Shown: piece after piece, positions 17,935 through 26,034 of the stretch
Layout of the letters: each line of letters starts with the position of its first letter
Position numbering within the stretch: the stretch's first letter is position 1
From: Mycobacteroides immunogenum
GTDB taxonomy: Bacteria; Actinomycetota; Actinomycetes; Mycobacteriales; Mycobacteriaceae
Length of the DNA stretch: 64,000 bases
Assembly (NCBI RefSeq): GCF_001605725.1
Contig: NZ_CP011530.1
Coordinates: 2,294,001-2,358,000 of the forward strand
Direction: 5' to 3'
Notes under the pieces: generated by a model
Database searches by the model: none
What the model was told of the DNA's origin: nothing
Seen by the model: only the letters and a program-made list of their open reading frames with translations
Program-made: the position numbers and the translations under genes

Positions 17935-19083
17935 CTAGTCGCGCGATGCGGCGAGGTAGGCGTCGCGCCCGGCCAGACTCACCGCGACATCGGCGATCAG
18001 TGGCTCGAAGAACCGGCTGCGGTATTGCGGATCCACGCTGCTGTTCACCGTGAAGTACAGCCCGGAAAGGACCGCGACCAGCAGCGCCATATGAATGAGG
18101 GTTTGTGGCAACCCGATGTGGATGCCGAACCATGTTCCGGCGCACGGAGGCGCTGCCCCTGAGGCGCATGCGGCCTCGTTGGACCACAACACCATCACAT
18201 CATGGGGCACCGCCACGATGCCGAGAAGCAAGAAAAAGGCGAATACGCCGGTGGTGAAGAACACGACCTGGATGGCCTGCGAGACCACCATGACCAGCAG
18301 CACGTTGATGCGTTCCGGCCATCGCAGTGCGGGTCTGGGTACCTCGTCGTCGACGAGGCCGGCCAGCGGCGTACCGGTTAGCAGTGCAGCTGCTCCCACC
18401 GACTCGGCGCGGTTCTCGCGCAGGTTGGCCAGCTCGTCGCGCACGGTCACCACCATGAACATCACCGCGGTGACGGAGAGGAAACCTATTGTCTGCCAGA
18501 GCCTCTCGCGGGTGATGCGCGCGGACAGCTGCCAGAGTTCCCCGGTGAAGAACACCACCACGGTCAACATGAGTAGTGGTAGCGCCCGGGACATCAGTGT
18601 TCCCAAGGCGCCGAATTGTGTTGACGCGTAGCGCAATGCCCACAGGCCGATAGATCCGGCGCCAAGGTACGTGAGCCAGATCAGTATCAGCGCGGCCACG
18701 AGATACGCCGGCATCCGGGCCGCCGTCGCCGACCACGTGCCGGTATCGACGGCAGGTAGGGCGATCACGAAGATCGCGATCACGAGCCACGACAGGGTGC
18801 GGCGCACTGCATCGGCGCGGATGGTTCCCACGCGTTGCAGCGCGGTGAGCACCAAGGGTTGCGCCGCCATCAGCAGCGCCACCACCCCAAGCAGGACCAT
18901 CAGTGCCACGGACCGTGTCGCGTTGTCGGTGGAGAGGAGCTCGTAGAGTGCCGCGCCCGCGCCCGCGATTCCGATCATGGGTGCGGCGCGATCAAGGAGC
19001 TCGCGTGCGCGCACCCGGCGGTCCAGGACGACGGGTAGCCCTCGCATCAGGAACCATTCGTGGACGTCCTCGAGATTGCGCAC
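17935..19083 (-). CDS. conserved multi-pass membrane protein of unknown function
   Basis: A roughly 382-residue integral membrane protein with about 8-9 hydrophobic segments. A short charged N-terminus (EDVHEWFLMRGLPVVLDRRVRARELL) resembles the start of an uncharacterised actinobacterial membrane family. No catalytic motif was recognised. The frame stays open to 19185, but that would overlap sigL and run through its promoter, so GTG 19083 is proposed; ATG 19047 is another choice. It is divergent from sigL and might share regulation with it, though no SigL-type promoter is seen on this strand. Confidence 0.65.
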   Translation of the reverse strand: MRNLEDVHEWFLMRGLPVVLDRRVRARELLDRAAPMIGIAGAGAALYELLSTDNATRSVALMVLLGVVALLMAAQPLVLTALQRVGTIRADAVRRTLSWLVIAIFVIALPAVDTGTWSATAARMPAYLVAALILIWLTYLGAGSIGLWALRYASTQFGALGTLMSRALPLLMLTVVVFFTGELWQLSARITRERLWQTIGFLSVTAVMFMVVTVRDELANLRENRAESVGAAALLTGTPLAGLVDDEVPRPALRWPERINVLLVMVVSQAIQVVFFTTGVFAFFLLLGIVAVPHDVMVLWSNEAACASGAAPPCAGTWFGIHIGLPQTLIHMALLVAVLSGLYFTVNSSVDPQYRSRFFEPLIADVAVSLAGRDAYLAASRD

Positions 19084-19138
19084 CAGGTCATGATGACGTC
19101 CGCCGGGGTGGTGCCAAAGGACCGAAACGCGCGTATCT

Positions 19139-19166
19139 TGAACCAATCGGGCGGTTGGATCGTGTA
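19139..19166 (+). promoter_or_regulatory. SigL-type promoter of sigL-rslA
   Basis: TGAACC (19139-19144), a 16-bp spacer, then CGTGTA (19161-19166). This agrees with the published M. tuberculosis SigL promoter consensus (TGAACC, 16-18 bp, CGTgtr) and predicts autoregulation. The sigL ribosome site and ATG 19184 follow directly. Confidence 0.88.
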
Positions 19167-19183
19167 ACCGTCGGAGGTGTTCC

Positions 19184-19789
19184 ATGACGGATGGGCAGGC
19201 CGGGCCTGACCGGGTGAGCCTAGAGGGCTCGCCGCAGGGCGATGGCGCGCGCGCAACCGGCTCATCTGAGTCCGGCGCTCTTCGCGCGAGCGGCTCATCA
19301 TCCCTGATGAGGGCGTTTTACGACGAATACGCGGGTCCGTTGCACCGCTACGTCATGCATCTGACACACGACTCGGCGCTCGCGGAAGACATCGTGCAGG
19401 AGGTGCTGTTGCGTGCCTGGCGGCATCCGACGCTGGTGAACCAGACCGAAGGGTCGGCCCGCGCCTGGCTGTTCACCGTTGCCCACAATCTGGTCCGCGA
19501 TAACGCGCGGAGTTCGCGCTTCCGCAGTGAGATCGCCACCGCGGAAACGCCAGAGTTCGCCTCGCCGGACCAGGTGGACGCGACGCTGGACGCCTGGCTG
19601 GTCGCCGAGGCGCTGCGCACCCTGTCCACCGATCACCGCGCCGTCATCCTGCGGGCGTACTACCGCGGGAGTTCGGTCGCGGACATATCCGCCGAGCTGG
19701 GAGTGCCCGAGGGTACCGTCAAGTCACGCCTTCACTATGGTGTGCGCGCACTTCGGTTGTCGCTGCAGGAAATGGGGGTCACGCGATGA
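19184..19789 (+). CDS. sigL: ECF RNA polymerase sigma factor SigL
   Basis: A 201-residue ECF sigma factor. Region 2 covers about residues 42-110 (LMRAFYDEYAGPLHRY ... AEDIVQEVLLRAWRHP) and region 4 about 140-195 (VADISAELGVPEGTVKSRLHYGVRALRLSLQE). It closely resembles M. tuberculosis SigL (Rv0735), which directs polyketide and envelope genes. GGAGG sits 6 nt before ATG 19184. The 40-residue N-terminal extension is unusual: it carries a tandem 33-nt repeat encoding ALRASGSS, also found at the start of the gene at 63424. It overlaps rslA by 4 bp and has its own SigL-type promoter. Confidence 0.93.
   Translation: MTDGQAGPDRVSLEGSPQGDGARATGSSESGALRASGSSSLMRAFYDEYAGPLHRYVMHLTHDSALAEDIVQEVLLRAWRHPTLVNQTEGSARAWLFTVAHNLVRDNARSSRFRSEIATAETPEFASPDQVDATLDAWLVAEALRTLSTDHRAVILRAYYRGSSVADISAELGVPEGTVKSRLHYGVRALRLSLQEMGVTR
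19244..19299 (+). repeat. 33-nt-period in-frame repeat inside sigL 5' end
   Basis: Unit 2 (19277-19299, beginning GCTCTTCGCGCGAGCG) is 23/23 identical to 63463-63485 and is read in the same frame in both genes (ALRASGSS). A degenerate unit 1 at 19244-19266 matches at about 16 of 23 bases, exactly 33 nt earlier, as at the other locus. Confidence 0.8.
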
Positions 19790-20532
19790 CTATCGAACAT
19801 GTCTACGCCGACTGGGATGCCGCCTATGTGTTGGGCGCGCTGTCCTCGACCGAACGGCGCGAATATGAGCAACACCTGGTGGATTGCGCCAGCTGCCAGC
19901 GTGCGCTTTCCGAGGTGACGGCGATGCCCGGCCTGCTGTCCAAGGTGGATCGCGGCTATGCCGAAAAGATGGAACTGGAAGACCCTCCCGCGCTCGCGAA
20001 GCCGGCCACCAGCTGCCCGGTGCAGGCGCTGTGGCCCAAGTTGCAGGCTCGATGGCGGCGGCAGAGCGCGGTGCGCCGGCTGGCCTATGTCGGCGCGGTC
20101 GCGGTCGCCGCGACGGTAGCGCTGACTGTTTCACTGGTGCCGCCGCCGTGGTACCACCGGCCCGCACCGATGAGTGTGGCGGCGGGCTCGTTGCCTTCGG
20201 GTGAGCACTGGCAACCGATGCGTCAGGTGACGCCCTCGCCGATGAGCGCACAGGTCGCCCTGGTGCGGGACGGCACCGGCACCCGCATCGAAATGTGGTG
20301 CAGCTATCCGGCCTATGGCGACGACGCAGACGACTCGGCAGCGCCGTACGCGCTGCGTATCGGTACTCGCTCCGGGCAGAGCATCATCGCTAGCTCGTGG
20401 ACCGCCAAGCCTGGTTCGACGATGATGACGTCGACGACCGTTCCCATGGCGCAGGATCAGATCGAGAGCGTCCAGGTGATCGACAACCACGGTGACGCCT
20501 CACCGCTGGTATTCCTCGAATTGCGCAACTGA
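19786..20532 (+). CDS. rslA: anti-sigma factor RslA (zinc-associated, membrane)
   Basis: A 248-residue anti-sigma factor. The cytoplasmic N-terminus has a ZAS motif with His30, Cys34 and Cys37 (HLVDCASC), which in RslA binds zinc and senses oxidation. A transmembrane helix follows at about 99-118 (YVGAVAVAATVALTVSLV), then an extracytoplasmic domain of about 130 residues. It should hold SigL inactive until the zinc site is oxidised or otherwise released. The 4-bp overlap with sigL (ATGA) keeps the pair balanced. A hairpin followed by TTT lies just after the stop codon. Confidence 0.92.
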   Translation: MTIEHVYADWDAAYVLGALSSTERREYEQHLVDCASCQRALSEVTAMPGLLSKVDRGYAEKMELEDPPALAKPATSCPVQALWPKLQARWRRQSAVRRLAYVGAVAVAATVALTVSLVPPPWYHRPAPMSVAAGSLPSGEHWQPMRQVTPSPMSAQVALVRDGTGTRIEMWCSYPAYGDDADDSAAPYALRIGTRSGQSIIASSWTAKPGSTMMTSTTVPMAQDQIESVQVIDNHGDASPLVFLELRN

Positions 20533-20541
20533 GCTCCTTGG

Positions 20542-20562
20542 GCACCGCGCTCGCGGTGCTTT
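20542..20562 (+). terminator. terminator after rslA
   Basis: GCACCGC (20542-20548), loop GCTC, GCGGTGC (20553-20559), then TTT. The perfect 7-bp GC stem lies 10 bp after the rslA stop. It implies that the following operon depends on its own promoter. Confidence 0.6.
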
Positions 20563-20652
20563 GACGTGCGCATCTTCAGGTAATCTGAAACTCGATTCAT
20601 GTTGTGCCATCACATGATTGAGATAACTCGATCACTTTTTCTCTGAGATTGT

Positions 20653-20680
20653 TGAACCCGTCACGTGTGACAGTCGTGTA
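20653..20680 (+). promoter_or_regulatory. SigL-type promoter of the ThDP/SRPBCC/KASIII/aminotransferase operon
   Basis: TGAACC (20653-20658), 16 bp, CGTGTA (20675-20680). The hexamers and spacer length are identical to the sigL promoter at 19139-19166. Only 6 nt separate the -10 element from ATG 20687, so the transcript would be leaderless. The spacer contains the palindrome TCACGTGTGA, an imperfect dyad. Confidence 0.85.
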
Positions 20681-20686
20681 CTAGTC

Positions 20687-22438
20687 ATGACCAGCCCGAC
20701 ATGTGCCCGGAGCCGCGCGGACGGTGACCTGCCGTTCCGGGAGGGGAACCCAAGGGTTGTCGACTGGCTCGTCTCGGAGCTACGCAGGCACGCCGTCGAC
20801 TTTGTGTTCGGTGTCGACGGTGCCAACATCGAGGATCTCTACGATGCCGTGCACTACACGCCAGGTATCGAAGCCGTCGTCGCCAAGCACGAATTCTCGG
20901 CGGGGACGATGGCCGATGGCTATGCGCGTGGAACCTCGCGGCTGAGTGTGGTGGCCACGACATCTGGCGGCGGCGCAGTCAATCTCGTTCCAGCGCTGGC
21001 TGAATCATATGCGAGTCGGGTGCCCGTGCTGGCGATCGTGGGTCAGCCGCCCCGGCCGCTGGAGGGCAACGGCGCATTTCAGGACGGCAGCGGGCGCGCG
21101 GGAAGTATGGATTTACAGGCGGTGTTCCGGCCCATATCCGGATACTGCGCGCGGGTGGAAAGCCCGGAAGAAATTGACGAGGCTCTCGGTCAGGCCTTGG
21201 CGGCTGTTCACGACGGGCTGCCTGCGGTTCTGTTGATCCCCAAGGATGTTCAGCAGGCGCGGTTGACGGCCGTACCGCAGCCGCGAGAGCCGCATCCCCC
21301 TTTGGGGGCGGCGCCTGCGCAGCTGGCCGACATCGCCGGGCAGCTGGCCGAAACGGCGGGCAGGATCTTGGTGGTGGCGGGCCCCGAGGTGGCCCGGCAT
21401 AACGCGCGCGACGAATTATCCGATCTCCTGGACCGCCTTGACGCCTTTGTGGCTGTCTCTCCCGATGCTAAAGACGTTGTGGATAGCGAGAATCCGCGAT
21501 TGCTCGGAGTCGTTGGGGTGATGGGTCACCCGGCCGTGGAACAGGTCTTGCGTCACGGTGTCACGTGCGTATGCGTCGGCACCAACATGCCCGTGATGAC
21601 CCGGGGTGCAACTGACTTCTCGGCAATCCCGGTGCTCTCCATCGGCTCCACGCCGCCGTACATCGCGTCGCGGCACCTGCAGACCCACGATCTGGCGTCT
21701 ACATTGACGGGCCTCGTAGCAGCTCTGGTGCCACGTTCGGATGTTGCCGACAGTGAAACACTCTATGCCCCGGCCCATCTGGAACCTCCTGTGTATGACG
21801 GTGACGGCGTGCGATACCGCGACGCCATGCAGGTCTTGGACCAGGCCATTCCCGTGGGTGCCGACATCTTCGTGGACGCGGGCAATACCGGTGCCGCGGC
21901 CGTGCATTACCTGGGTGCGCGGCCGCGTGGGCGCTACGTCGTCGCACTCGGCATGGGGGGTATGGGATATGCCTTCGGTGCGGGCATCGGTTGCGCCTTC
22001 GCGCGCGCCGGACGCACCGTGGTGATTGCCGGTGATGGCGCATTCTTCATGCACGGCATGGAGATTCATACGGCCATCGAGCATCGGCTGCCGGTGACGT
22101 TCGTCATCGTCAACAACAACGCACACGCTATGTGCGTCACGCGCGAACAGCTGTACTACGGAGGGAGCTACAGCTTCAACAGATTCGCGCCGTCACACAT
22201 CGCATCCGGACTGGCCGCGATGTTCCCGGGCCTGGTGTGCCATTCGGCAGATACGGCGGCCGACTTCGGTGCCGCCATACATGCGGCAATGACTCACAAC
22301 GGGCCGTCCGTGGTGGAGGTCGTGTGCGCCACCGACGAGGTACCACCGTTCGCCCCATTCCTGTCATCCGAAACCGCTAAGGAGAATACGAATGACCGAC
22401 ACGATTACCCAAACCGCGAAAGCCTTGCCCGCGCTTAG
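20687..22438 (+). CDS. thiamine-diphosphate-dependent enzyme (acetolactate synthase-like)
   Basis: A 583-residue three-domain ThDP enzyme. The catalytic glutamate is Glu69 (AKHEFSAGTMADGYAR). The middle domain is around 190-350. The cofactor motif is GDG at 449-451, with the paired Asn in NNN (476-478). It resembles acetolactate synthase and decarboxylases; the family decarboxylates or activates a 2-oxo acid and passes the acyl anion to an acceptor. It is the first gene of a four-gene operon with a SigL-type promoter directly upstream. The last 47 nt overlap the next gene, so the C-terminal tail may be an extension. It is unlikely to serve branched-chain amino acid synthesis, since no small subunit or ilvC is near. 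Confidence 0.8.
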   Translation: MTSPTCARSRADGDLPFREGNPRVVDWLVSELRRHAVDFVFGVDGANIEDLYDAVHYTPGIEAVVAKHEFSAGTMADGYARGTSRLSVVATTSGGGAVNLVPALAESYASRVPVLAIVGQPPRPLEGNGAFQDGSGRAGSMDLQAVFRPISGYCARVESPEEIDEALGQALAAVHDGLPAVLLIPKDVQQARLTAVPQPREPHPPLGAAPAQLADIAGQLAETAGRILVVAGPEVARHNARDELSDLLDRLDAFVAVSPDAKDVVDSENPRLLGVVGVMGHPAVEQVLRHGVTCVCVGTNMPVMTRGATDFSAIPVLSIGSTPPYIASRHLQTHDLASTLTGLVAALVPRSDVADSETLYAPAHLEPPVYDGDGVRYRDAMQVLDQAIPVGADIFVDAGNTGAAAVHYLGARPRGRYVVALGMGGMGYAFGAGIGCAFARAGRTVVIAGDGAFFMHGMEIHTAIEHRLPVTFVIVNNNAHAMCVTREQLYYGGSYSFNRFAPSHIASGLAAMFPGLVCHSADTAADFGAAIHAAMTHNGPSVVEVVCATDEVPPFAPFLSSETAKENTNDRHDYPNRESLARA

Positions 22439-23084
22439 TGATATCACCGCGGATGCCGGCACCGAGACCGCGCTTCCCGGAGTGCACCGCATCGAGACCT
22501 CTCCACGGGAAAAGGCCACGCCGATCATCATGGACATGATGCGGTCGGTGTACCCGCACGATCAGGTTTTCGGCCCGTTCTGCACCGTCCAGGAGTACGT
22601 CGATTGCCCACCCGATGAACTGCACCGCTATCTGTCCGACACGCGGTGCCTGGAGGAGTGGACCTACAGCCTGCGCGGCTTCGAAGAGACCGATGAACCC
22701 GGGCTGTGGGTTGCGCATGATCGCCTGGGGTCTGACACGCTGATCTACACCCGTACCGAGTCGAACGCCGAATCCGGAACCGTCGACTACCACTGTGCGT
22801 GGGATCAGGGCGACCACCTGTGGATGATCTACCTCATGCGGGTGGTTGACGCGCAGGTCGTACTCAACAAGCCGGGCTCCGTGGTGCTGTGGACAAACTG
22901 TCACCATCCGTTCTACGACGACAATCCCTATCCGGAAACAGCTCCACCACAACGCAAGCCGTGGGTGGGCGACTTCTGGGACATGTTCGGCGCGGGGCAC
23001 ATGTTGGAGCTGCTCAACCTCAAGGCCATTGCTGAATACCGCCACAGCCATGGGCTGCCGATTGTTCCGGAGTGGATGAAATGA
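22392..23084 (+). CDS. SRPBCC-family (START-like) protein
   Basis: A 230-residue soluble protein. Residues about 65-180 look like an SRPBCC/polyketide-cyclase-type lipid-binding fold (TVQEYVDCPPDELHRYLSDTRCLEEWTYSLRGFEE). Such proteins act as cyclases, hydrolases or carriers for hydrophobic intermediates. The start ATG 22392 has AAGGAG upstream and lies inside the end of the ThDP gene. It is followed by an ATGA overlap with the KASIII gene, so all four genes should be translated from one message. No catalytic residues can be assigned. Confidence 0.65.
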   Translation: MTDTITQTAKALPALSDITADAGTETALPGVHRIETSPREKATPIIMDMMRSVYPHDQVFGPFCTVQEYVDCPPDELHRYLSDTRCLEEWTYSLRGFEETDEPGLWVAHDRLGSDTLIYTRTESNAESGTVDYHCAWDQGDHLWMIYLMRVVDAQVVLNKPGSVVLWTNCHHPFYDDNPYPETAPPQRKPWVGDFWDMFGAGHMLELLNLKAIAEYRHSHGLPIVPEWMK

Positions 23085-24094
23085 CCGTCAGCATCTTTGA
23101 TGTATCCAGCTACCTTCCGCAGAATCGGGTCGGCGCAGACTACTTCGCGCAGTACGCCAAGGATGACGATCTGGCCGAGAATGTGATGTTCCGCAGCCCG
23201 GCATACCGGCATCATGTGGCGCACGACGAGACCGCGGTCGACATGGCCGAGCGCGCCGTCGCCGGGCTCAAGGAGCGCCATGGAGAAGCTGTGCTCGATG
23301 ACGTCGACATCCTGCTGACGCATACCCAATTGCCTGATCTGCCGTTCGTGGGCTGCGGTGGGGAAGTGGCGAACCGGTTGCAGATTCGTCCCGAGTGGAT
23401 TCTGGATGTGCACAACGGTGGTTGCGTGTCATTTGTGTTGATGCTCAAGCTGGTTCAACAGATGATGGACTCCTCGAACGCGCGCTCGGCACTGATCATG
23501 AACATGCAGAACGCGGCAGGGCAGATCTTTGTGCAAGAGCAAGTGCGCTCTACCGCCCAGGCATCGATCCCGGGAGACGGCGCCACTGCGACACTGATCA
23601 CCCGGGACGGGGGATCGCCGGTCCTAGGCATCGAGACCCGGAACTTCGGCGAATACGCCGGCGACATGACCTACGCGGTAACGCCGCATCGCAAATACTG
23701 GGAATCAGGCTCCGGGCAGGGGCGAGTGGCCTTCACCGAACACAAGATCAGCAAGGTGTTGGCGCGGGGCAACCGCATGGTGCCGGAGGTGGCGCTGGCC
23801 GTCTGCGATCGAATTGGAGTTCCCTCAACAGATCTCGATGTTCTGGTGACCAATCAGCCCAACCGGATATTTCTGCGCAACTGGCGTGACGCCTTGCAGC
23901 TGCCCAAGGACAAGCACCCCGACACCTTTGATGAGTGTGGGAATCTCTTCGGAGTGGGTATCCCACATACACTCGATGCGGCGATTTCCGAGGGCCAGGT
24001 GCGAGCAGGCGACACCGTGATGCTGGCCGGATTCGCCCACGCCGGCGACTACGCGGCCGCGGCGGCGGTCCGCTGGGGAGGCCGAGGTCAATGA
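23081..24094 (+). CDS. KASIII-like (FabH/CerJ family) enzyme lacking the usual His
   Basis: A 337-residue thiolase-fold enzyme. The active-site cysteine is Cys115 (HNGGCVS) and the Asn of the triad is Asn288 (CGNLFGVGIP). The position of the catalytic His in FabH (HQAN) is Asn258 here (TNQPN). FabH needs His and Asn for decarboxylative condensation, so this protein may instead be an acyltransferase, as some KASIII-like enzymes of secondary metabolism are. ATG 23081 is preferred over GTG 23072 because of GGAG at 23069 and the ATGA overlap. It overlaps the following aminotransferase in the same way. Confidence 0.8.
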   Translation: MTVSIFDVSSYLPQNRVGADYFAQYAKDDDLAENVMFRSPAYRHHVAHDETAVDMAERAVAGLKERHGEAVLDDVDILLTHTQLPDLPFVGCGGEVANRLQIRPEWILDVHNGGCVSFVLMLKLVQQMMDSSNARSALIMNMQNAAGQIFVQEQVRSTAQASIPGDGATATLITRDGGSPVLGIETRNFGEYAGDMTYAVTPHRKYWESGSGQGRVAFTEHKISKVLARGNRMVPEVALAVCDRIGVPSTDLDVLVTNQPNRIFLRNWRDALQLPKDKHPDTFDECGNLFGVGIPHTLDAAISEGQVRAGDTVMLAGFAHAGDYAAAAAVRWGGRGQ

Positions 24095-25131
24095 CAGTGA
24101 GCCCGCTTCGGTTGGCGTTGAACGAAAACCCCTACCGTCCACTGCCCTCGGTTCGCGACGCGCTCCGGCATGACATCGCGGAGGTGAATCGCTACCCCGA
24201 GTTTCTGCCGGTGGTGCTTCCGAGACTGATCGCGGAACGGGTGGGTATGACGCCGGAGGAAGTGGTGGTGGGCGTCGGTGCCACCGGGGTTGCGCTTCAG
24301 GTTCTGCAGGCGCTGTGCCGGCCGGGAGATTCGCTGGTCTTCGCGCACCCAACATTTGACGGCTATCCGATACTGGCCGATATCGCCGGGCTCATTCAAG
24401 TACCGATTCCACTGGCGGACAACGGTATGACCGACCTTGACGAACTGCTCGGGGCGGCGTACGACGCCGATGCCGCCGCAGTGGTGCTGTGCCGGCCGCA
24501 CAATCCGACAGGAACGTTGATACCCGCCGAACAGGTCTATGAGTTTGTGCGCCAGGCGCCACCGACCAGCGTCGTCATTCTGGACGAGGCCTATATCGAA
24601 TTCGTGGATCCTGATGAGCATCTGGATATCCCCCGCCTGCTGCGGGCGCACTCGAACCTGGTGGTACTGCGTACCTTTTCGAAGGCGTATGGGCTGGCCG
24701 GGCTGCGTATCGGATATGGGCTGGCCGCACCCACGGTCTGTGGTGTCATCCGCCGGTACCAACTCCCGTTCGGCATGAATCGTGCGGCCGCGGTGGCTGT
24801 GGCAGCGTCGTACGCGGCGGAAGACGAGCTGCGATTGCGGGTCGATTCGATTGTCTACGAACGTGATCAGCTGCGGGAGCGGCTCGCGCAGATGGGCGCA
24901 CATATCCCGGAGTCGCATGCCAACTTCGTGTACTTGCCGGCCCGCGGCGACGGCGAGCCCTGGATGTCGAAATTGGGAACCGGCGATGTCGTGGCCAAGG
25001 AATACCCCGATGGCGGAGTCCGTCTTACCGTCGGCGACCCGCGCGAAATGGCAATAGTCGCGCGACGTTTGTTGGACGTCGGCGAGATAGGTGAAAGCGC
25101 AGCGTCTCAGTTGAGTAGACCTGCGTCATAG
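24091..25131 (+). CDS. PLP-dependent aminotransferase (HisC-like, fold type I)
   Basis: A roughly 346-residue class I/II aminotransferase close to histidinol-phosphate aminotransferases. It has the N-terminal LALNENPY motif, HNPTG (about 138-142), DEAYIEF (165-171) and the PLP lysine Lys198 in RTFSKAYGLAGLRIGY. No his gene is nearby and it sits last in the SigL-type operon, so it more probably aminates a ketone made by the ThDP and KASIII-like enzymes than acts in histidine synthesis. It overlaps the KASIII gene by 4 bp. A bidirectional hairpin terminator follows. Confidence 0.8.
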   Translation: MTVSPLRLALNENPYRPLPSVRDALRHDIAEVNRYPEFLPVVLPRLIAERVGMTPEEVVVGVGATGVALQVLQALCRPGDSLVFAHPTFDGYPILADIAGLIQVPIPLADNGMTDLDELLGAAYDADAAAVVLCRPHNPTGTLIPAEQVYEFVRQAPPTSVVILDEAYIEFVDPDEHLDIPRLLRAHSNLVVLRTFSKAYGLAGLRIGYGLAAPTVCGVIRRYQLPFGMNRAAAVAVAASYAAEDELRLRVDSIVYERDQLRERLAQMGAHIPESHANFVYLPARGDGEPWMSKLGTGDVVAKEYPDGGVRLTVGDPREMAIVARRLLDVGEIGESAASQLSRPAS

Positions 25132-25209: not shown

Positions 25210-26034
25210 TCAGAACGCGTAGCGGTGATACTGGGCCATGTAGCGGAGGGTCGCCGACAGCGACATCGCCTTGGCCAGAAGTCGATACGCGGTCTTGGTC
25301 TGTTGGAAGGACTCCGCGTCGAACGGTGACTCCCATTCGAGCAGTTGCAGCTTCGGTATGGCGTGAATGAGGTCCTCGGGGCTGTCTATGCCCCAGTACA
25401 GCGTCGCTCCCGAACGCCGGACCACAGCATTGGACCACTGTGTCTTGATGCCGAATTTGTTGAACGCGTCGAATTGCAATTCCCCATAGGGAAAGTGATC
25501 GACGATTCGGCGAAACAGCGCGATTCCGTCGTCCTGCTTGAGATACATCGTGAGTCCTTCACCGATCGCTAGCACCGGGCGGCCGTCGGCGATGTTCGCG
25601 AGCCACCCGGGATCGGTGACCGACGCGGAAACCACGTGATAGTGATCGTGTGTCGGGTAAAGCTGACTGCGGAGTGCGGCCACGTCGGGGTAATCGACGT
25701 CGTACCACTCGACCCCGGGACCGGGATTCAACCGGAAGTAGCGACCGTCCAGACCGCAACCCAGATGCAGCACAACGGCCTCGGCGTGCCTGGTCAAAAA
25801 CGCGCGGGCCCAATCGTCGAAATGCGCGGAGCGGGTGGTGACAGCTGGGGACCTGCCGGCGGTGATGGTGGTCTTGGACCAGTCATAGTCGATGCGACGG
25901 GCGATGTCGCGGGCCATCTGATCGCCCAGGATCGGTTCAGGCAACTCGGCGTCGAGCGCCTTGGCGTAGAACGTCGCCAACATGGTCTGCGGTGCTCCGC
26001 TGAGGTCGACATGAATCTTCTCGGGGTGGCTCAT
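25210..26034 (-). CDS. SAM-dependent methyltransferase (PPM/TcmP-like)
   Basis: A 274-residue class I methyltransferase of the leucine-carboxyl/TcmP-like O-methyltransferase group. The SAM site is VVLHLGCGLDGRYFRL (about 92-107), followed by WYDVDYPDVAALR, and IGEGLTMYL is the usual post-motif. These enzymes O-methylate carboxylates or small metabolites; the substrate is unknown. It is convergent to the SigL-type operon and separated by a terminator, so membership in that pathway is possible but not shown. It is divergent from dop, sharing an intergenic region with CTGAACA repeats. Confidence 0.75.
   Translation of the reverse strand: MSHPEKIHVDLSGAPQTMLATFYAKALDAELPEPILGDQMARDIARRIDYDWSKTTITAGRSPAVTTRSAHFDDWARAFLTRHAEAVVLHLGCGLDGRYFRLNPGPGVEWYDVDYPDVAALRSQLYPTHDHYHVVSASVTDPGWLANIADGRPVLAIGEGLTMYLKQDDGIALFRRIVDHFPYGELQFDAFNKFGIKTQWSNAVVRRSGATLYWGIDSPEDLIHAIPKLQLLEWESPFDAESFQQTKTAYRLLAKAMSLSATLRYMAQYHRYAF

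Follow-up and report, generated by a model that had tools for sequence, protein, structure and literature searches.

What do the four genes that follow the sigma factor pair sigL-rslA in Mycobacteroides immunogenum produce, and are they controlled by SigL? The locus lies in a window of 64 kb (the whole stretch of DNA analysed) from the single-contig 5.57-Mb genome of this species. A preliminary description had proposed that SigL drives the four genes as an operon, that their product is acyloin- or amino-ketone-like, and that the pathway had not been described before. SigL control gained support from conservation of the promoter motif and from its co-occurrence with SigL. The other two proposals had to be revised. 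The protein encoded by the second gene is homologous to CqsB2, a carbazole synthase, and the four genes together correspond to the published core enzyme set for making carquinostatin and neocarazostatin (PMC7466098). In our judgement the locus probably encodes a redox-switched, self-contained carbazole pathway under SigL.

A four-gene operon resembling the core of carbazole biosynthesis

From sigL through the aminotransferase gene, the genes abut except for one gap of 154 nt. The four tightly overlapped genes of the preliminary description, coding for a thiamine diphosphate (ThDP) enzyme, an SRPBCC protein (here called the cyclase), an enzyme like β-ketoacyl-acyl carrier protein synthase III (KASIII) and an aminotransferase, were recovered with overlaps of 47 nt (ThDP/cyclase), 4 nt (cyclase/KASIII) and 4 nt (KASIII/aminotransferase); their coordinates are given in Table 1. 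In the carbazole pathway PMC7466098 assigns these roles to CqsB3 (ThDP enzyme), CqsB2 (carbazole synthase), CqsB1 (KASIII-like enzyme) and CqsB7 (aminotransferase).

The cyclase has no Pfam or NCBIfam match, and CqsB2 is its single PDB sequence match at E ≤ 0.001; its database relatives are named merely 'SRPBCC family' or 'hypothetical protein'. The residues named for CqsB2 are Tyr144, Tyr172, His206, Glu209 and Glu105 (PMC7466098). The first four are kept in 90, 89, 90 and 90 of 90 aligned cyclases, window included, and correspond to Y147, Y175, H203 and E206 of the window protein. In an alignment of 92 KASIII sequences, Cys115 is kept in all and Asn288 in 91 (one gap). A T-x-Q-P-N motif is common to the operon KASIII and to the Embleya KASIII encoded beside a CqsB2-type cyclase, where aligned FabH-type proteins have HQAN.

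Several features weigh against a carbazole product. The ThDP enzyme shares only 33% identity with that of the CqsB-type cluster of Embleya, and its best PDB matches are BbmA and CsmA. The fifth named residue of CqsB2, Glu105, is D110 in the window protein; Asp stands at this position in 89 of the 90 cyclases and Glu solely in that of Embleya. The operon KASIII departs from the canonical FabH Cys-His-Asn triad in that Asn258 replaces the His, a change present in 90 of the 92 sequences (Embleya has His and one row is a gap). As a consequence of these two fixed differences, substrate or chemistry may differ from that of CqsB2 and the Embleya CqsB-type proteins. Finally, the best PDB match of the aminotransferase is 4r2n, a putative phenylalanine aminotransferase, which leaves room for an aryl group other than indole.

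The aminotransferase match, together with the Asp and Asn that set the subfamily apart, would also fit the same chemistry on another ring, with phenylpyruvate or 4-hydroxyphenylpyruvate as the aryl 2-oxoacid and a cyclase closing a naphthalene-type ring. We consider this unlikely. The remaining four named catalytic residues of CqsB2 are kept, and we know of no naphthoquinone of the corresponding type from Tsukamurella. That genus is known for carbazoles (from the title of a cited reference), and two of three Tsukamurella loci have a TrpB-like gene next to the operon, a weak pointer that we did not rely on as proof of tryptophan use, given its presence in these two loci only.

An open-chain acyloin, an amino ketone or another signal, with the SRPBCC protein in a binding or chaperone role rather than as a ring-forming enzyme, has a precedent in Clostridium beijerinckii, whose NzsH homologues make the indole acyloin core of the sattazolins (PMC9822442). 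Such a product is nevertheless quite improbable here, because the catalytic residues of the cyclase are invariant or nearly so, and because in a plasmid collection the five records with an operon-type KASIII (54-58% identity) are the same five that carry the cyclase at about 50% identity or above. A sixth cyclase record, from Embleya (40%), carries a CqsB-type KASIII instead, and the next KASIII reaches at most 28.6% among the matches listed (15 of 38 KASIII records). On plasmid pRB29 of Rhodococcus oxybenzonivorans (L103:8663-9657) the KASIII match falls into two overlapping, unannotated pieces and the gene may be broken.

Table 1. Features of the sigL-rslA region and the adjoining operon (window coordinates)
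Feature	Position	Strand	Remarks
SigL-type promoter of sigL-rslA, TGAACC-N16-CGTGTA	19139..19166	+	17 nt 5′ of sigL ATG
sigL, extracytoplasmic function (ECF) sigma factor	19184..19789	+	NF007227, 227.7 bits vs cut-off 202
rslA, zinc anti-sigma factor	19786..20532	+	PF13490 zf-HC2; HLVDCASC (HxxxCxxC)
SigL-type promoter of operon, TGAACC-N16-CGTGTA	20653..20680	+	6 nt between −10 and ThDP ATG
ThDP-dependent carboligase (CqsB3/NzsH role)	20687..22438	+	PF02776/PF00205/PF02775
Carbazole-synthase-like cyclase (CqsB2/NzsI role)	22392..23084	+	PDB 6ipv CqsB2, E 3.7e-46
KASIII-like condensing enzyme (CqsB1/NzsJ role)	23081..24094	+	PF08541/PF08545; Cys115-Asn258-Asn288
HisC-like aromatic aminotransferase (CqsB7/NzsD role)	24091..25131	+	PF00155

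SigL-type promoters precede both sigL and the operon

The earlier identification of sigL holds: its product has M. tuberculosis SigL as best PDB match (6dv9; 203 bits, E 3e-59), and among 17 matches in the genome it is the sole gene over the cut-off of NF007227. A score over this cut-off was used as the SigL call in all genomes; that NF007227 stands for SigL is our reading, the NCBI name being a sigma-70 family subfamily. The gene overlaps rslA by 4 nt, and the HxxxCxxC zinc motif is present in 53 of 54 RslA sequences.

Two elements with the same hexamers and the same spacer, already noted in the preliminary description, are indeed found before sigL and before the ThDP gene. They match the known SigL consensus; a literature search listed no paper that gives this consensus. 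Since the ThDP ATG lies only 6 nt past the −10, the operon mRNA is probably leaderless. Exact sites with a spacer of 15-18 number 8 in the genome versus 3 in a backward-read control, and TGAACY-N16-CGTRT sites 11 versus 4. Of these 11, only those of sigL (17 nt) and the ThDP gene (6 nt) lie less than 20 nt before the start of an open reading frame (ORF) of more than 80 amino acids (aa) that opens there; two others lie 43 nt before a 252-aa ORF and 40 nt before a 104-aa ORF, and the other 7 either fall within the reading frame in question or are not followed by any such start in the next 60 nt. The site before the 252-aa ORF (G000:C1:730746-730772, plus strand, locus L198; product starting MTYRETATASG) is SigL-like and possibly marks a further SigL target.

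Other mycobacteria and relatives, where it had been proposed to look for the same four genes behind the motif, carry both. The locus set consisted of the best 80 of 185 loci encoding KASIII relatives, among which the closest named relative of the operon is that of Mycobacteroides chelonae (KASIII 94% identical); all four operon genes were matched in 77 of the 80. Operon promoters were counted in the 74 loci having a ThDP match with at least 350 nt 5′ of it, the remaining 6 being left out. A first scan for TGAAC-N16..18-CGT, from −400 to +150 nt around the estimated start, found the element before the ThDP gene in 69 of the 74 loci (0.09 expected per region), and a tighter scan of a 320-nt region found it in 68 (background 0.049 per region), that is in 44 of 45 loci with sigL in the fetched flank and in 24 of 29 without. 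Of 46 loci, 43 have it near the estimated start of sigL. A spacer of 16 is shared by 66 of the 69 operon elements and all 43 sigL elements. A binomial figure computed for the element leaves the kinship of the loci out of account and carries no weight here. Occurrence of the motif by chance was rejected on the genome-wide site counts, the start positions and the conservation across loci.

The hairpin terminator that had been thought to separate rslA from the operon found no such support. The hairpin directly 3′ of rslA, with only three T after it, is no more stable than expected by chance (z −1.3; 21 of 200 shuffles equally good), and a scanner reported 3 terminator-like stems in the region versus a shuffle mean of 4.4; a strong intrinsic terminator after rslA is not supported by these results. 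The scanner also classed as terminator-like an A+T-rich stem (20615-20634) with a T-rich tail (to 20644), just 5′ of the operon −35.

Element, operon and SigL occur together across genomes

The presence of the element was compared with that of SigL in 18 chosen genomes, of which 14 were clear and 4 mixed. All eight genomes that have the element and no sigL in the fetched flank encode SigL over the cut-off; in 7 of them the locus itself contains sigL-rslA, about 5.5 to 8.5 kb 5′ of the ThDP gene and separated from it by other sequence, while in G744, which has both element and SigL, the operon is not beside sigL-rslA. None of the six genomes whose operon lacks the element (two Gordonia, Segniliparus, R. 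aetherivorans and two of the Tsukamurella group) has SigL over the cut-off. Over the 14 clear genomes this association gives a Fisher p of 0.0003.

With the four mixed genomes added, p becomes 0.05; these are G041 (a fragmented, 89%-complete assembly with the element and no SigL over the cut-off), L060 (a one-mismatch element with SigL present), L078 (SigL present, the element distant and its −10 poor) and Streptomyces G528 (no element at the ThDP gene, two SigL-like genes above the cut-off). The two Tsukamurella-group genomes have neither operon element nor SigL over the cut-off, so that any antioxidant link in them would be independent of SigL.

A survey of 60 genomes of the genus found SigL over the cut-off in 51, namely in 36 of 37 with the cyclase versus 15 of 23 without it (p 0.0013). 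In 30 of the 36 genomes having both, sigL lies within 10 kb 5′ of the cyclase gene on the same contig and strand; in 6 it does not. That the motif is the mark of a different ECF sigma factor or a chance match, with the operon as a mere neighbour of sigL, is hardly credible: several ECF sigma factors do use similar promoters, 5 to 6 of the 74 loci lack the element and G041 has it without SigL over the cut-off, but element and SigL are in step in 14 of the 18 genomes, the element also precedes sigL, and sigL-rslA and the operon are kept together as a block at several genome places. From these comparisons we infer SigL control of the operon, which we regard as well supported.

Distribution and repeated absence of the operon

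The cyclase was found in 37 of the 60 genomes of the genus, in 102 of 301 genomes of the family, spread over 16 of 31 genera, and in 15 of 396 genomes of the phylum, one of the latter being a short weak match. Mycobacterium nebraskense (L050, L052) carries two operon copies on one contig, and two cyclase copies were also seen in G004, G021 and G043 among others. A Burkholderia-labelled protein (P0067), 73% identical to the cyclase, points either to inter-phylum transfer or to a mislabelled record.

In 44 of 74 loci with enough flank, sigL lies at most 6.5 kb 5′ on the same strand. Several kb separate rslA from the ThDP gene in seven genomes (L208-L214), and in one of these, M. shimoidei (L214), a second cyclase copy directly follows rslA. 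The operon sits between rslA and a MarR gene in many mycobacteria; in L195 the order is secY-adk-map-sigL-rslA-[four genes]-MarR-mmsB-fadE9-mmsA, the names outside sigL-rslA and the operon being assigned from the proteins. We take this MarR gene to be the orthologue of Rv0737. In M. tuberculosis, rv0737 is a MarR gene immediately 3′ of sigL-rslA (PMC13002591).

Among the 15 genomes of the survey with SigL and without the cyclase, the MarR gene directly follows rslA in 14 (the flanks of L178 and L185 are incomplete), L180 differing. No remnant SigL element was detected between rslA and MarR in the 15 such loci examined for one. A tree of 44 loci (31 with and 13 without cyclase) requires at least 8 changes of presence, of which at least 4 are forced by well-supported branches. 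The sigL-rslA-operon block occurs at three or more genome places: on the mpa/dop side (tentative labels after the proteasome locus), as in the window, where sigL-rslA and the operon are flanked by these two genes, on the adk-map/MarR side, and at others in Rhodococcus and Nocardia. Loss of the operon would be a simpler reading than gain, because the block is also found elsewhere in Mycobacteroides, Rhodococcus and Nocardia; the operon may also have been gained repeatedly at one place.

A proposed redox-switched pathway

Oxidation would cause the zinc anti-sigma factor RslA to let go of SigL, as the kept HxxxCxxC motif suggests by analogy with M. tuberculosis. SigL would then transcribe sigL-rslA and the operon from the two matching promoters, for which the comparative evidence is strong. 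The aminotransferase is predicted to convert an aromatic amino acid, most likely tryptophan, to its 2-oxoacid, which the ThDP enzyme would join to pyruvate, an acyloin-type acid being expected as an intermediate only. The KASIII-like enzyme may then carry out a decarboxylative condensation of this intermediate with an acyl group from the acyl pool of the cell. None of the 52 matches to PF00550, the acyl carrier protein (ACP) domain, in the genome falls in the window, and the operon has no room for a second KASIII (no search for one was made in the other parts of the window); since the operon lacks both, general metabolism would supply the acyl group. The CqsB2-like cyclase would close and aromatise ring A to give a carbazole. 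The scheme is least secure where it assumes tryptophan as substrate and a long acyl chain.

Such a pathway would yield a carbazole of phenolic or quinone type, soluble in the membrane and acting as an antioxidant like lipocarbazoles or carquinostatin; it may be lipocarbazole-like. An antioxidant role is plausible by analogy, because carbazoquinocins are reported to be strong inhibitors of lipid peroxidation.

A wider reading, which we put forward tentatively and hold to be possible rather than probable, is that carbazole lipids are the ancestral SigL-induced membrane antioxidant of mycobacteria and relatives. A minimal line of four enzymes would make them, its Cys-Asn-Asn KASIII drawing long acyl chains from the general fatty-acid synthesis of the cell. 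SigL would originally have had the operon as its main target; repeated deletions between rslA and MarR, apparently including one in M. tuberculosis, would have left the sigma factor orphaned and put to other use. If so, a common operon predicts a class of mycobacterial metabolites, and SigL gains a clear ancestral function in redox-triggered antioxidant synthesis. The apparently missing neighbouring target operon would be one explanation for the unclear role of SigL in M. tuberculosis. The locus would also offer a lead to the lipocarbazole genes and to a KASIII subfamily with an altered active site.

Two neighbouring genes were also considered. An LCM-type methyltransferase (25210-26034, minus strand; TIGR00027 below cut-off) is convergent with the operon. 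It was rejected as a pathway member: it lies on the opposite strand, and tblastn found it in 4 of 5 Mycobacteroides loci (complete in L011, L012 and L013, fragmented in L009, with no match in L010) and in none of 75 others. The divergent gene at 17935-19185 (minus strand) has no Pfam or NCBIfam match, and its first listed start overlaps the sigL start. In L010 and L011 a match covers no more than the later 92-93% of it, and the true start may lie further in.

Comparison with known systems

In the SigL-RslA system of M. tuberculosis, oxidation of RslA releases Zn and abolishes its affinity for SigL (PMC2877774). The window SigL is homologous and the zinc motif is kept in the window RslA, whereas in M. 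tuberculosis rv0737 stands directly downstream of sigL-rslA; the SigL targets named in PMC13002591 are pks7-pks10, Rv1138c-Rv1139c and others, a carbazole operon not being among them there. Elsewhere in the group, sigL is single in M. abscessus ATCC 19977 and absent from M. salmoniphilum-like strains (PMC6418233), and in M. mucogenicum sigL1 mRNA is up in stationary phase (PMC6917791). Among the open-licence papers listed, judged by title and abstract start, none connects SigL or mycobacteria with such a carbazole pathway.

With the Streptomyces carquinostatin (cqs) and neocarazostatin (nzs) clusters, the window operon shares one gene for each core role: aminotransferase, ThDP carboligase, KASIII-like enzyme and CqsB2-type cyclase (PMC7466098). 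It differs in having four genes only, in the order ThDP-cyclase-KASIII-aminotransferase, in its predicted SigL control, and in leaving no room for an ACP, a second KASIII, a prenyltransferase or a P450; the dedicated ACP CqsB6 and second KASIII CqsB5 have no counterpart in the window operon. The E105D change in the cyclase and the His to Asn change in the KASIII are further differences. The Embleya cluster has the order KASIII-cyclase-ThDP-KASIII, with identities to the window proteins of 24, 40, 33 and 25%. In the chlocarbazomycin cluster the aminotransferase is annotated as histidinol-phosphate transaminase and the cyclase as SRPBCC family protein (PMC10100901).

Lipocarbazoles come from Tsukamurella pseudospumae, according to the title of a cited reference, and no paper on their genes was found in the open-licence literature. 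In contrast to the window operon, neither an operon aminotransferase nor a SigL element was seen in three loci of Tsukamurella type. They share with it the succession ThDP-cyclase-KASIII, present in T. tyrosinosolvens and in two genomes sharing flanking proteins with it (83-98% and 60-89% identical).

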